Assembly: GCF_000014285.2 (NCBI RefSeq)
Contig: NC_008343.2
Span: forward strand, 1,700,501 to 1,764,500
DNA from: Granulibacter bethesdensis CGDNIH1
Lineage (GTDB): Bacteria > Pseudomonadota > Alphaproteobacteria > Acetobacterales > Acetobacteraceae
DNA length: 64,000 nucleotides
Direction of reading: 5' to 3'
Under the pieces are notes generated by a model. The model worked only from the letters and a program-made list of their open reading frames with translations, searched no databases and was not told the DNA's origin. A program made the position numbers and the translations under genes. Below, piece by piece: positions 50,006-53,609 of the stretch; position 1 is the stretch's first letter, and every line of letters begins with the position of its first letter.

Positions 50006-51031
50006 TCAATAAAATTTGAAGCCGAACCGGTCTGTCTCTTCCTGACGCTTTTTCTCGGCCGACAGGGCATTTGTCAGAGAAGAAAGACTTTCCTTCGTTT
50101 CCTTGCCGACCGTGGCAGAAAATTGTTTGAGGGAGACGAGATTAATCGTTGAGGTCCATGTTCCCAGCTCGGAATTTTCGACCGGCATCGTATCGCCATT
50201 ATGCTCGATCGTATCGACACGGAATTTTTCATACCTCTTTCCCTGCGGAAGCCATACGGGGTCGCCCGGATTGATATCGGGCCGCATCAGGGAATACACC
50301 TGCACCCCTTCCACAGGTCCGATACTGGAGACGAGGTCTTTCAGATACGGGTTATCAGCGGGATTCAGATCCTGTATGATAGCGGAGCTTCGCGGCCCCA
50401 TGAAGGTTCTGTCGATATAACGGATCAGCCCTGTTTCCATGCTCAGAAGGACGGAAGGGCGCGTGGTGGTTTCCTCCTTTCTGGTAACCTGAATCGTTTT
50501 GTTCTGAACGGAATATTGCAAGCCGACAGAATGGCAGATGCTTTCGAGCATATCTTTGGCCGATCCGTAAAAGCTGAAGCCGCTTTTCAGACGTCTGGCA
50601 CCAATGCCCTTTGCCATGTATAATGTCATTTTGGCGTTCGTGGCTGCGGCCTCAATGACATCCCGGACAGGAATTCCTTTTTCTCCTCTATAACTTATCA
50701 ATGATCGGGATAAAAGATCAGAGCCATCGAAGCCTATCACTGTCACAATAGAATCTGCATTTCTTTGGCCTGTTTTTATGGCGTATGGAGAACCTGAGAA
50801 GGCCAACGAAAAAGGGCCAGATTCATAGCCACAATAAACTTGTAAATCCACAGATCTTATTATATGTCTTAATGATTCATTATTTATATTATACAAATCA
50901 ATTTTTATACTATTTCCAGAATTATTATACATTCTTTTAATATTTATTTTTGCTTTTATATTTGTGATTTTTTTTATTCCTTCATCACTTATAAAAATTA
51001 TTTCGCATTTCCTATTGTTTAAAGAATTCAT
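50006..51031 (-). CDS. Baseplate hub protein, copy 2 (gpD/gp27-like)
   Basis: A 341-residue hub homologue. Key segments are FYGSAKDMLESICHSVGLQY, LSMETGLIRYIDRT, NPADNPYLKDLVSS, GVQVYSLMRPDINPGDPVWL and ELGTWTSTINLV. It shares most of these with hub copy 1 at 55265-56167. The ATG (51031) overlaps the stop of the upstream small exported-protein gene as ATGA. Its first 60 codons are very AT-rich, while the rest is much more GC-rich, so the gene is a mosaic at the cassette boundary. The last 40 residues (SLTNALSAEKKRQEETDRF) are extra compared with copy 1. The hub holds the spike at the tail tip. Confidence 0.8.
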   Translation of the reverse strand: MNSLNNRKCEIIFISDEGIKKITNIKAKINIKRMYNNSGNSIKIDLYNINNESLRHIIRSVDLQVYCGYESGPFSLAFSGSPYAIKTGQRNADSIVTVIGFDGSDLLSRSLISYRGEKGIPVRDVIEAAATNAKMTLYMAKGIGARRLKSGFSFYGSAKDMLESICHSVGLQYSVQNKTIQVTRKEETTTRPSVLLSMETGLIRYIDRTFMGPRSSAIIQDLNPADNPYLKDLVSSIGPVEGVQVYSLMRPDINPGDPVWLPQGKRYEKFRVDTIEHNGDTMPVENSELGTWTSTINLVSLKQFSATVGKETKESLSSLTNALSAEKKRQEETDRFGFKFY

Positions 51032-51546
51032 TTTACTAATTCTCCATCTGTATTGCAAGATTTACGATCTATTTCAGATAAAAACTTACCTCCAAATTCC
51101 TCGCCATATAATGCCCATCCTCGACTTGATTTGATTGCAAGCTCTCTTCTCGGTATATGATTTTTTAATATTTCTTCCGTTGCCATACAGACAAACCAAT
51201 CTCCTTGTTCATTAACGGTAACATAAGAATGTATCGTAGTAACATTCGGATTTCTTCTCTGAAGCTCATCCCCAAATGACTGGATTAAGCTTGCCTCTTC
51301 TTCCCCCCGATAAAGATGATACGGACCGGGCGGCACATCATATTTCTGGCGCAGTTTTTCCAGAATTTCCGGCGTCAGCTTGCTTTCTATAGCCTCGTTA
51401 TGTTTTCTTCGACGCTCCATCTCCTCTTGCAGCGCCTGCGACAATTTGGCCACCAGCTTCGGGTCCCAGTAATCTGCGACAGCAGACCCACAGGATAGAA
51501 CATTGCCTAAAAGAACTGCGGCAATAACAAGGGTTTTGTATTTCAT
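51028..51546 (-). CDS. Small exported protein of unknown family, array A copy 1
   Basis: A 172-residue protein from ATG 51546 (MKYKTLV); GTG 51558 is also possible. A Sec signal (TLVIAAVLLGNVLSCGSAVA) precedes a charged helical region (QALQEEMERRRKHNEAIESK) and the family motifs KYDVPPGPYHLYRG, TVNEQGDWFVC, SSRGWALY and C.TDGE. I recognise no known domain. It is the only array A copy joined to a complete hub gene, through an ATGA overlap. Base composition is AT-richer than the tail genes. A role in tail-module immunity, exclusion or periplasmic adhesion is speculation. Confidence 0.7.
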   Translation of the reverse strand: MKYKTLVIAAVLLGNVLSCGSAVADYWDPKLVAKLSQALQEEMERRRKHNEAIESKLTPEILEKLRQKYDVPPGPYHLYRGEEEASLIQSFGDELQRRNPNVTTIHSYVTVNEQGDWFVCMATEEILKNHIPRRELAIKSSRGWALYGEEFGGKFLSEIDRKSCNTDGELVK

Positions 51547-51589
51547 CGTCTGATACACTCCATTTTATGCTTTCATCTCCTTCGCTATC

Positions 51590-51635
51590 ATACAGAAAGC
51601 GCACCATACCGGCAGGCACAATGCGCTTTCTGTAT
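51590..51635. repeat. Hairpin element, array A unit 1
   Basis: ATACAGAAAGCGCA and TGCGCTTTCTGTAT form a perfect 14-bp inverted repeat with an 18-base loop (CCATACCGGCAGGCACAA). It lies between the hub relic and the next gene on the minus strand. No T-run follows, so it is not an ordinary terminator; it may be an RNA structure or recombination site. Confidence 0.8.
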
Positions 51636-51688
51636 CATGATCGGAGCAAGCCGACAGATTCGTATTTTCTATCTTGCAAATAAGTCAT
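51635..51688 (-). pseudogene. 17-codon relic of hub start, array A
   Basis: The small-gene stop overlaps ATG 51688, which reads MTYLQDRKYES and then leaves hub-like sequence. This resembles MNSLNNRKCEI of hub copy 2 and MNYLNNRKYKI of the chimera at 52971. It shows that the duplicated unit once continued into a hub gene. Confidence 0.7.
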
Positions 51689-52203
51689 TTTACTACTTCT
51701 CCATCTGATAGGCATGCTTTATCATGTATTTCAAACAAAAATTTGCCTCCAAATTCATCGTCATATAATGTCCATCCTCGACTTGATTTTATTGAAATCT
51801 CGTTTCTTGGTATATGATTTTTTAATATTTCTTCCGTTAGTATGCAGACAAACCAGTCTCCTTGTTCATTAACAGTCATATGAGAATATAGCGTAGAAAC
51901 ATTTGGATTTCTTCTCTGAAGCTCATCCCCAAATGACTGGATTAAGCTTGCCTCTTCTTCCCCCCTATAATGATGATACGGACCGGGCGGCACTTCATAT
52001 TTCTGGCGCAGTTTTTCCAGAATTTCAGGTTTCAGCTTGCTTTCTATAGCCTCGTTATGTTTTCTTCGACGCTCCATCTCCTCTTGCAGCGCCTGCGACA
52101 ATTTGGCCACCAGCTTCGGGTCCCAGTAATCCGCAACAGCAGACCCACAGGATAAAACATTGCCTAAAAGAACTCCGGCAATAACAAGGGTTTTGTATTT
52201 CAT
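51685..52203 (-). CDS. Small exported protein of unknown family, array A copy 2
   Basis: 172 residues, the same design as copy 1, with signal TLVIAGVLLGNVLSCGSAVA. Family motifs are KYEVPPGPYHHYRG, MTVNEQGDWFVC, SSRGWTLYDDEFGG and ACLSDGEVVK. It differs from copy 1 mainly in the segment before MTVNEQ (VSTLYSH) and in the C-terminal third, where it equals copy 3. The mosaic pattern suggests gene conversion between copies. It stops at 51685 over the ATG of a hub relic. Intact and probably expressed, but no promoter was identified. Confidence 0.7.
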   Translation of the reverse strand: MKYKTLVIAGVLLGNVLSCGSAVADYWDPKLVAKLSQALQEEMERRRKHNEAIESKLKPEILEKLRQKYEVPPGPYHHYRGEEEASLIQSFGDELQRRNPNVSTLYSHMTVNEQGDWFVCILTEEILKNHIPRNEISIKSSRGWTLYDDEFGGKFLFEIHDKACLSDGEVVK

Positions 52204-52860: not shown

Positions 52861-52903
52861 CGTCTGATACACTCCATTTTATGCTTTCGTCTCCTTCGCT
52901 ATC

Positions 52904-52949
52904 ATACAGAAAGCGCACCATACCGGCAGGCACAATGCGCTTTCTGTAT
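52904..52949. repeat. Hairpin element, array A unit 3
   Basis: The third exact copy of the 14-bp-stem hairpin. Its left and right arms are unchanged, which suggests selection or very recent duplication. Confidence 0.8.
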
Positions 52950-52970
52950 CATGATCGGAGCAAGCCAGAA

Positions 52971-53088
52971 GAATGGCAGATATTTTCGAGCATATCTTTG
53001 GCCGATCCGTAAAAGCTGAGTATATTTTTTTTACTCCATCATCACCCATAAAAATTATTTTGTATTTCCTGTTGTTTAAATAATTCAT
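52971..53088 (-). pseudogene. Internally deleted hub gene fragment
   Basis: Reading on the minus strand from ATG 53088 it starts MNYLNNRKYKIIFMGDDGVK, as at the hub start. It then jumps at about 53020 into sequence equal to the middle of hub copy 2: GGCAGATxxTTTCGAGCATATCTTTGGCC occurs here and near 50530, read on the plus strand. About 400 bp of the hub have been lost. The fragment is direct evidence that the array arose from full small-gene/hub pairs. Confidence 0.8.
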
Positions 53089-53609
53089 TTTACTACTTCT
53101 CCATCTGATGCGCATGCCTTATGTTGTATTTGCATCAAAAATTTTCCTCCAAATTCATCATTATATAATGTCCATCCTCGACTTGATTTGATTGAAATAT
53201 CTGGTCTGTGTATGTGATTTTTTAATATTTCTTCAGATGCTATGCAGACAAACCAGTCTCCTTGTTCATTAACAGTCATATGAGATTCTAACCAAGTAAG
53301 ATTCGGATTTCTTCTCTGAAGCTCTTCCCAAAATGGCTGGGTCAATCTTTCCTTTTCTTCCCCCCTATAAAGATGATACGGACCGGGCGGCACATAATAT
53401 TTCTGGCGCAGTTTTTCCAGAATTTCAGGTGTCAGCTTCCGTTCTATAGCCTCGTTATGTTTTCTTCGACGCTCCATCTCCTCTTGCAGCGCCTGCGACA
53501 ATTTGGCCACCAGCTTCGGGTCCCAGTAATCCGCAACAGCAGACCCACAGGATAGAACATTGCCTAAAAGAACCGCGGCACCTGCGATCTTCAAATATAA
53601 AGCTCTCAT
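53085..53609 (-). CDS. Small exported protein of unknown family, array A copy 4
   Basis: 174 residues from ATG 53609 (MRALYLKIAG), with GGGGGGACT just before it. The signal differs from copies 1-3 in its first ten residues but then reads VLLGNVLSCGSAVA again. Motifs are KYYVPPGPYHLYRG, MTVNEQGDWFVC, SSRGWTLYNDEFGG and ACASDGEVVK. It is the outermost unit of the array, 97 bp from the baseplate J gene, and its upstream hairpin (53637-53670) is different in sequence from that of the other units. Its stop overlaps the ATG of the deleted hub fragment. Confidence 0.7.
   Translation of the reverse strand: MRALYLKIAGAAVLLGNVLSCGSAVADYWDPKLVAKLSQALQEEMERRRKHNEAIERKLTPEILEKLRQKYYVPPGPYHLYRGEEKERLTQPFWEELQRRNPNLTWLESHMTVNEQGDWFVCIASEEILKNHIHRPDISIKSSRGWTLYNDEFGGKFLMQIQHKACASDGEVVK

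Follow-up and report, generated by a model that had tools for sequence, protein, structure and literature searches.

The baseplate region of a prophage-like element in Granulibacter bethesdensis CGDNIH1 contains two tandem arrays, each made up of one or more units of a small exported-protein gene and a broken baseplate hub gene, followed by a last small gene joined to a complete hub gene. The window analyzed here is a 64,000-nucleotide (nt) stretch (positions 1,700,501 to 1,764,500) of contig NC_008343.2, a single contig of 2,708,434 bases. The element, which is vertically inherited and has a contractile tail, lies on the - strand from about window position 43093 to about 9.6 kb beyond the window end and carries genes for terminase, portal, capsid, sheath, baseplate, fibres and lysozyme. 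In order of transcription, its baseplate part reads gp25-like gene, s7, spike2, s6 with a hub fragment, s5 with hub2, baseplate J, s4 with a hub chimera, s3 with a relic, s2 with a relic, s1 with hub1, and spike1, where s1 to s7 are the exported-protein genes. This genome (G000) was compared with the sister genome G001 and with G002.

Array A comprises four intact small genes, s1 to s4, each running through an ATGA overlap into a hub start (Table 1). Open reading frames (ORFs) and overlaps bear out the layout proposed in the initial annotation, in which only the last hub is complete. The copies behind s2 and s3 are 17-codon ORFs, and behind s4 stands the predicted internally deleted chimera, with hub nt 1-65 fused out of frame to hub nt 455-504 to give an ORF of 69 amino acids (aa). 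The sole complete copy, hub1, falls outside the interval 51028-53609 first assigned to the array. Three copies of the repeat are 85, 84 and 81% identical to a reference copy over 300 nt, and their spacings are 657, 657 and 743, a repetition far beyond chance. The 657-bp unit had been described as recurring exactly, which holds for length and spacing but not for sequence, as two adjacent units differ at 36 of 657 sites. Over the C-terminal half of the protein, s1 is 78, 76 and 66% identical in aa to s2, s3 and s4, respectively, and s2 is 92% identical to s3. The array is thus real and more structured than first described. Hairpins lie before its internal small genes, at 51587-51638, 52244-52295 and 52901-52952. 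When one array-A hairpin was folded per genome, z was -5.3, -5.4 and -9.3 in G000, G001 and G002, and inner stem pairs are preserved between G000 and G002 despite differing bases. A mobile repeat was considered for the inter-copy palindrome and rejected: the pattern is restricted to array-A junctions (three in G000, one in G001), with zero occurrences in G002, whose hairpin carries a changed base.

Array B, at 55265-57487, has the same design, with s6 and an 87-codon hub fragment followed by s5 and hub2. Both complete hubs match the baseplate-hub family phrog_196 over most of the protein. A seventh paralogue, s7, is single in each of the three genomes. The s6/s5/hub2 unit is bracketed by a terminator-like direct repeat (55191-55230 and 57574-57614). 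Promoter- and terminator-like sites overall fell below shuffle means (16 versus 19.0 and 8 versus 10.0, respectively), and only the terminator at 57614 was used. Array B of G001 contains a copy of the hub2-side terminator sequence, as if recombination between both repeats gave a duplication. It also holds a very divergent small gene (locus L028, 9916-10437), apparently a foreign allele, whose C-terminal half is 32-37% identical in aa to the other array-B copies.

Table 1. Features of the two arrays and their surroundings (window coordinates)
Feature	Position	Strand	Basis or remark
Small ORFs of array A, full extent	51028-51558, 51685-52215, 52342-52872, 53085-53660	-	ORF calls
Likely ATG starts of s1, s2, s3, s4	51546, 52203, 52860, 53609		placed by eye
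hub1, complete baseplate hub gene behind array A	50006..51031	-	phrog_196, E 8.9e-41
s1, exported-protein gene adjoining hub1 (ATGA overlap)	51028..51546	-	C-terminal half 81.2% nt to G001 hub-proximal copy
17-codon hub relic, strong hairpin and leader before s1	51547..51688	-	hairpin -39.7 kcal/mol, z -5.34
s2, exported-protein gene, hub-distal	51685..52203	-
17-codon hub relic, palindrome, leader	52204..52345	-
s3, exported-protein gene, hub-distal	52342..52860	-
Frameshifted hub chimera, palindrome, leader	52861..53088	-	hub nt 1-65 joined to 455-504
s4, exported-protein gene, first in array, mosaic	53085..53609	-	5' like G001 first copy; C-terminal half 96.0% nt to G001 hub-proximal copy
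Baseplate J, between arrays A and B	53706..55169	-	Pfam Baseplate_J, E 5.9e-11; phrog_6
hub2, second complete baseplate hub gene	55265..56167	-	phrog_196, E 8.4e-42
s5, exported-protein gene adjoining hub2	56164..56679	-
87-codon 5' fragment of hub2 fused to s5 leader	56709..56972	-	99.2% over 260 nt to hub2
s6, exported-protein gene, hub-distal	56969..57487	-	C-terminal half 96.4% nt to G001 hub-proximal copy
Terminator-like repeat upstream of array B	57574..57614	-	11-pair stem with T run; partner 55191-55230 downstream of hub2
s7, longer single-copy paralogue before spike2	58283..58957	-

All 16 small ORFs of the three genomes are open, and each of the seven hub-distal ones is a full ORF with a start and an ATGA end. 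If only substitutions are modelled and each copy is given half its distance to its nearest relative, the chance that seven neutral distal copies all stay free of stops is P 5.6e-5, or about 0.003 without b2, the very divergent G001 copy. Six copy pairs gave ratios of nonsynonymous to synonymous substitution (dN/dS) of 0.33-0.45 (Fisher p 0.001-0.028), with the caveat for all these constraint statistics that gene conversion makes the copies non-independent. None of the seven extra hub copies is whole, and their junctions are of three types. G000 has the frameshifted chimera, the two relics of 17 codons and the 87-codon fragment; G001 has a 6-codon and a 15-codon relic, and G002 a 185-codon 5' fragment. 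No more than 22 codons of the hub start are kept in five of the seven. The distal small genes are constrained, while the hub fragments decay.

The hub pieces look like scars of tandem duplication of one exported gene plus hub 5' sequence, trimmed later with the exported gene retained. A duplication beginning before the small gene and ending inside the hub leaves complete small genes, broken hubs upstream and a single complete hub last. In array A all three genomes have the same hairpin and leader after the junction, as would be left by a single old duplication and then different deletions, with the trimmed unit amplified in G000; this order of events is inferred. Duplications of array B look independent in G000 and G001 because their junctions differ, hub2 codon 87 being joined to the leader in G000 and the terminator from downstream of hub2 being carried in G001.

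Alignment of the copies, as the initial annotation had advised, yielded conversion-like tracts. A runs test on the 28 pairs of the eight array-A genes was globally significant (p<=0.005) in four: three pairs inside G000, plus the pair of G000 s3 and the first G001 copy. The two G002 units differ at 71 of 1052 sites yet are identical over a run of 293 nt in the hub part, and the two G000 array-B units differ at 47 of 773 sites yet are identical over a run of 307 nt (0 of 5000 shuffles in each case). Runs tests presume even rates, and uneven constraint could contribute to these signals. Stronger evidence of mosaicism lies in s4, whose nearest relative switches along the gene: over the initial 60 nt, s4 is 95% identical to the first G001 copy, and over nt 241-480 it is 97-98% identical to the G001 hub-proximal copy.

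The allele that adjoins the hub also differs between the sister genomes. Relative to the C-terminal half (about 276 nt) of the hub-proximal G001 gene, identity is 96.0% for s4 and 81.2% for s1 in array A, and 96.4% for s6 and 88.3% for s5 in array B; baseplate J, for comparison, is at 97.3%. Because s4 and s6 are near the J level and s1 and s5 are lower, the orthologue of the hub-proximal G001 allele is, in both arrays, a distal copy in G000. At the hub, nt identity to G001 is 77.4% over codons 1-65 of hub1 and 92.6% over codons 66-300, with codons 301-330 variable too, and 83.6% over codons 1-65 of hub2 and 97.7% over the rest. This variable zone is markedly AT-rich. The GC content of hub codons 1-70 is 16-28% in five hubs measured (hub1 19.5%), and that of small genes beyond nt 240 is 29-39% (ten measured) versus 55-67% in ten other element genes. 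All changes observed are between species.

Copy number is not fixed among the related genomes. Small genes before hub1 number four, two and two, and those before hub2 two, two and one, in G000, G001 and G002, respectively. A fixed copy number and order with neutral decay, the outcome that the initial annotation had set against its own proposal, was therefore not obtained. Among 60 relatives, profiles of the small genes found matches in 3 genomes (own genome included), and in a set of 299 family genomes these 3 again were the ones matched; all belong to one genus. No homologues beyond the genus were found in these 60 relatives, in the 299 family genomes, which were drawn from a larger group, or in a profile scan of genome contigs, whose zero matches may omit near genomes. 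A viral-contig search returned one contig, identical to G002 over 12,488 bases and not counted separately.

The element is bordered by the same flanking genes in all three genomes. Synonymous divergence (dS) from G001 is 0.03-0.42 across 31 element genes tested, with one host yardstick gene at 0.18. From G002, 23 of the 31 genes have dS below 0.6 (host gene 0.37), and eight, namely hub1, s1, hub2, s6, s7 and three fibre-region genes, have dS of 0.64-1.37. Capsid dN/dS is 0.016 and 0.030. On the basis of these dS profiles and capsid values, the element has largely been inherited vertically and kept, and some segments, including hub2 and the small genes, were probably exchanged. The three fibre-region genes lie at 44639-47770; their dS against G002 of 0.8 to 1.4 (one over only 148 codons) suggests imported segments there too.

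The element resembles gene transfer agents and other domesticated prophages in having head, tail and lysis genes that span about 30 kb, no adjacent tyrosine integrase, and vertical inheritance under purifying selection. The nearest PF00589 match is about 51 kb off in G000 and none is near the element in G001 or G002, in a search confined to PF00589. Unlike gene transfer agents, the element is predicted from its genes to have a contractile tail. In all three genomes its baseplate genes include two complete hubs and two complete spikes (49382-51031 and 55265-58250). Two related loci, L045 from another genus and L057 from a Pseudomonas phage, have two small tail genes, the hub and then the spike, with one hub and one spike each in the stretch seen and no exported gene in front of the hub.

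Among the genes that diverge most from genome to genome are the small genes, the two hubs, the probable tape measure and ORF 59488. The fastest-changing set would thus consist of parts that enter the target cell and exported proteins. ORF 59488 (59488-60273) encodes 261 aa with an export-like hydrophobic stretch, judged by eye, between two baseplate genes, and evolves fast: it is 90% identical in aa to G001 and 63% to G002, with dN/dS of 0.31 and 0.47, and has no PHROGs match at E<=0.01. The probable tape-measure gene (62332-63990), named by position and also lacking a PHROGs match, is 69% identical in aa to G002 and has dN/dS of 0.44 and 0.48, far above the head genes. Elsewhere in the window, the end of an ORF at 9078-9695 resembles, by eye, a small lysis-region protein encoded at 43093-43479 and is perhaps a remnant of a second element.

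The small protein is likely periplasmic with a disulfide, as predicted from two shared features. In all 16 members the N terminus is hydrophobic and shows a cleavage-like small-residue site, as judged by composition only, and two cysteines (positions 119 and 163 of s1) are invariant in all 16. An AlphaFold2 model is alpha+beta, with a mean predicted local distance difference test score (pLDDT) of 86.7. Its best VIA-align match, cystatin D (Z 6.4, root-mean-square deviation 3.5, 78 aligned), scores in a range that common arrangements also reach and supports no conclusion. Comparison of the small-gene profile with Protein Data Bank (PDB) sequences gave one unrelated-looking chain (E 0.055), and a weak SUKH_5 match of s5 (E 0.56) was not used. 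The hub model was poor (mean pLDDT 55.5), and variable residues were not mapped onto it. A diversity-generating retroelement was rejected, as no PF00078 match occurs in the genome (3 of 14 control genomes were positive).

Arrays of comparable layout are known among contact-dependent inhibition (CDI) and Rhs systems. In PMC3150448, recombination after tandem duplication is proposed for orphan cdiA-CT/cdiI and rhs-CT/rhsI modules, and for orphan cdiI the authors consider two possibilities, an immunity repertoire and recombination onto the main gene. The arrays described there and those of the element share tandem units of an intact small gene and a fragment of its large neighbour (seven of each in our three genomes), as well as exchange of main and orphan alleles across strains. 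They differ in that the large gene here is a phage baseplate hub, which is not a known toxin, in place of cdiA or rhs with a polymorphic C-terminal toxin, and immunity is a predicted role. The small gene lies upstream here and downstream there, and here it is the N terminus of the hub that is variable and shared with the array.

T4 Spackle (gp61.3), as described in PMC7677548, is a small periplasmic protein with a disulfide that binds and blocks the T4 tail lysozyme in superinfection exclusion. We predict a phage protein of the same kind here, periplasmic, disulfide-bearing and acting on a tail-tip protein. However, Spackle is an alpha-helical bundle encoded by an early gene, whereas the protein here is predicted to be alpha+beta and is encoded in multiple copies among tail genes; no sequence relation between the two was found. 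Other small exported exclusion proteins are T5 Llp (PMC9586334), which acts on the host receptor FhuA, and Ltp of Streptococcus thermophilus phage TP-J34 (PMC3952083), for which the title of a cited work names the tape measure protein as target. Both differ from the protein here in being lipoproteins. To our knowledge, neither is known as tandem arrays.

Constrained distal genes beside broken hub copies fit a retained repertoire of small proteins better than a silent store. Given the precedents of orphan cdiI and Spackle, we consider exclusion or self-protection, directed against variants of this tail, its most likely function, and we hold this reading tentatively. The arrays are best read as the product of tandem duplications with one end ahead of the exported-protein gene and the other within the hub gene or shortly beyond it. 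The small proteins would be periplasmic factors that block or neutralize tails arriving from the same element or its sisters, probably through contact with the hub or nearby tail-tip parts. Cells would benefit from holding several alleles, former hub-proximal ones included. On this view the array would be a repertoire for immunity or exclusion, and most hub pieces would be scars of duplication.

Several points weigh against this proposal. Family searches of all 16 members gave little: in Pfam nothing exceeded the cut-off for s1 and the best E for any member was 0.014 or worse, NCBIfam gave nothing below E 0.066, and PHROGs returned mostly families of unknown function (phrog_31594 for 7 of 16 members, best E 0.0016, with 21 s1 residues matched). 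A PADLOC match of one of the 16 to a reverse-transcriptase-associated model (E 0.00069) was taken as chance, and Foldseek searches of the PDB and a viral library with the exported-protein model found nothing at E<=0.001. The small genes occupy what looks like a late operon, an odd site for a factor shielding bystander cells. Raised dN/dS or dS is not exclusive to hubs and small genes, being likewise found in orf 61666, orf 60486, the tape measure, orf 59488 and the fibre-region genes. The sample is limited, as only three genomes carry arrays, and 24 of the 28 pairs lack a global runs-test signal, including the two G002 genes (p 0.41). Finally, the exported gene and the hub start are not strictly linked in a fixed traveling cassette, because the 66-nt hub start behind s4 is 86.4% identical to its own hub1 and 74.2% to G001 hub1, and the s6 hub fragment is nearly identical to its own hub2.

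A more specific form of the exclusion proposal is possible, if rather doubtful. The element may be a domesticated contractile tail with its own self/non-self recognition, in which a rapidly changing hub N terminus, together with the tape measure, would face a genome-encoded periplasmic repertoire. Each allele would block particular hub types, and old alleles would be archived in tandem as orphan immunity genes.

The initial annotation favored a silent-cassette store, in which distal copies are donors and recombination within the conserved hub start or leader swaps the expressed small gene and hub start. Such stores, exemplified by pilS/pilE and vlsE, place truncated silent donors beside one complete locus and operate by gene conversion. 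The arrays resemble them in having several related copies next to one complete locus, with gene conversion suggested by four of 28 pairs and the long identical tracts. They differ in that all seven distal copies are full, constrained genes with starts. Mosaic copies and a hub-proximal allele that is unlike between sister genomes agree with the idea of a store, and the two longer hub fragments, of 87 codons in G000 array B and of 185 codons in G002, the latter with the 293-nt run identical to its full hub, could be donors of the hub N terminus. However, the hub copies themselves are decaying, with 22 codons or fewer of the hub start left in five of the seven fragments, and the notion of hub start and small gene as one exchangeable cassette fails at s4, where hub start and C-terminal half have not traveled together. 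Overall, the silent-store reading is partly supported but unlikely.

Extra copies might instead supply more of one exported protein that, like T5 Llp, keeps progeny from binding to debris or blocks a host receptor, with allele diversity secondary. Repeated duplication with intact ORFs and the position of an exported-protein gene next to a tail-tip gene are compatible with such a dosage effect, and Llp is a periplasmic exclusion lipoprotein (PMC9586334). The strong differences between the C-terminal halves of s1 and s2-s4 would be unexpected for plain dosage, close as s2 and s3 are, and make this explanation distinctly unlikely. We regard as improbable a role for the exported protein in hub or spike biogenesis, as a chaperone or envelope partner that must match its hub, with extra copies as by-products. 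The ATGA overlap suggests translational coupling, and small genes precede hub1, hub2 and spike2, but export separates the protein from cytoplasmic tail assembly and the L045 and Pseudomonas phage hubs do without such a gene. Neutral tandem duplication and decay without benefit, to which the decaying hub fragments and varying copy number would be suited, is very improbable given seven stop-free distal copies, their dN/dS, and array-B junctions that differ between G000 and G001 with the small gene retained each time.

A literature search covering titles and abstract openings, with most subscription papers outside its reach, found no such array described. The arrays preserve a clean natural record of tandem duplications that each time spared one member of a coupled gene pair and broke the other. 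If they are indeed a repertoire of exclusion or self-protection proteins, the principle of the orphan immunity array would extend from secreted toxins to phage-derived tails, and how carriers of domesticated tails escape their own or sister particles would become testable.

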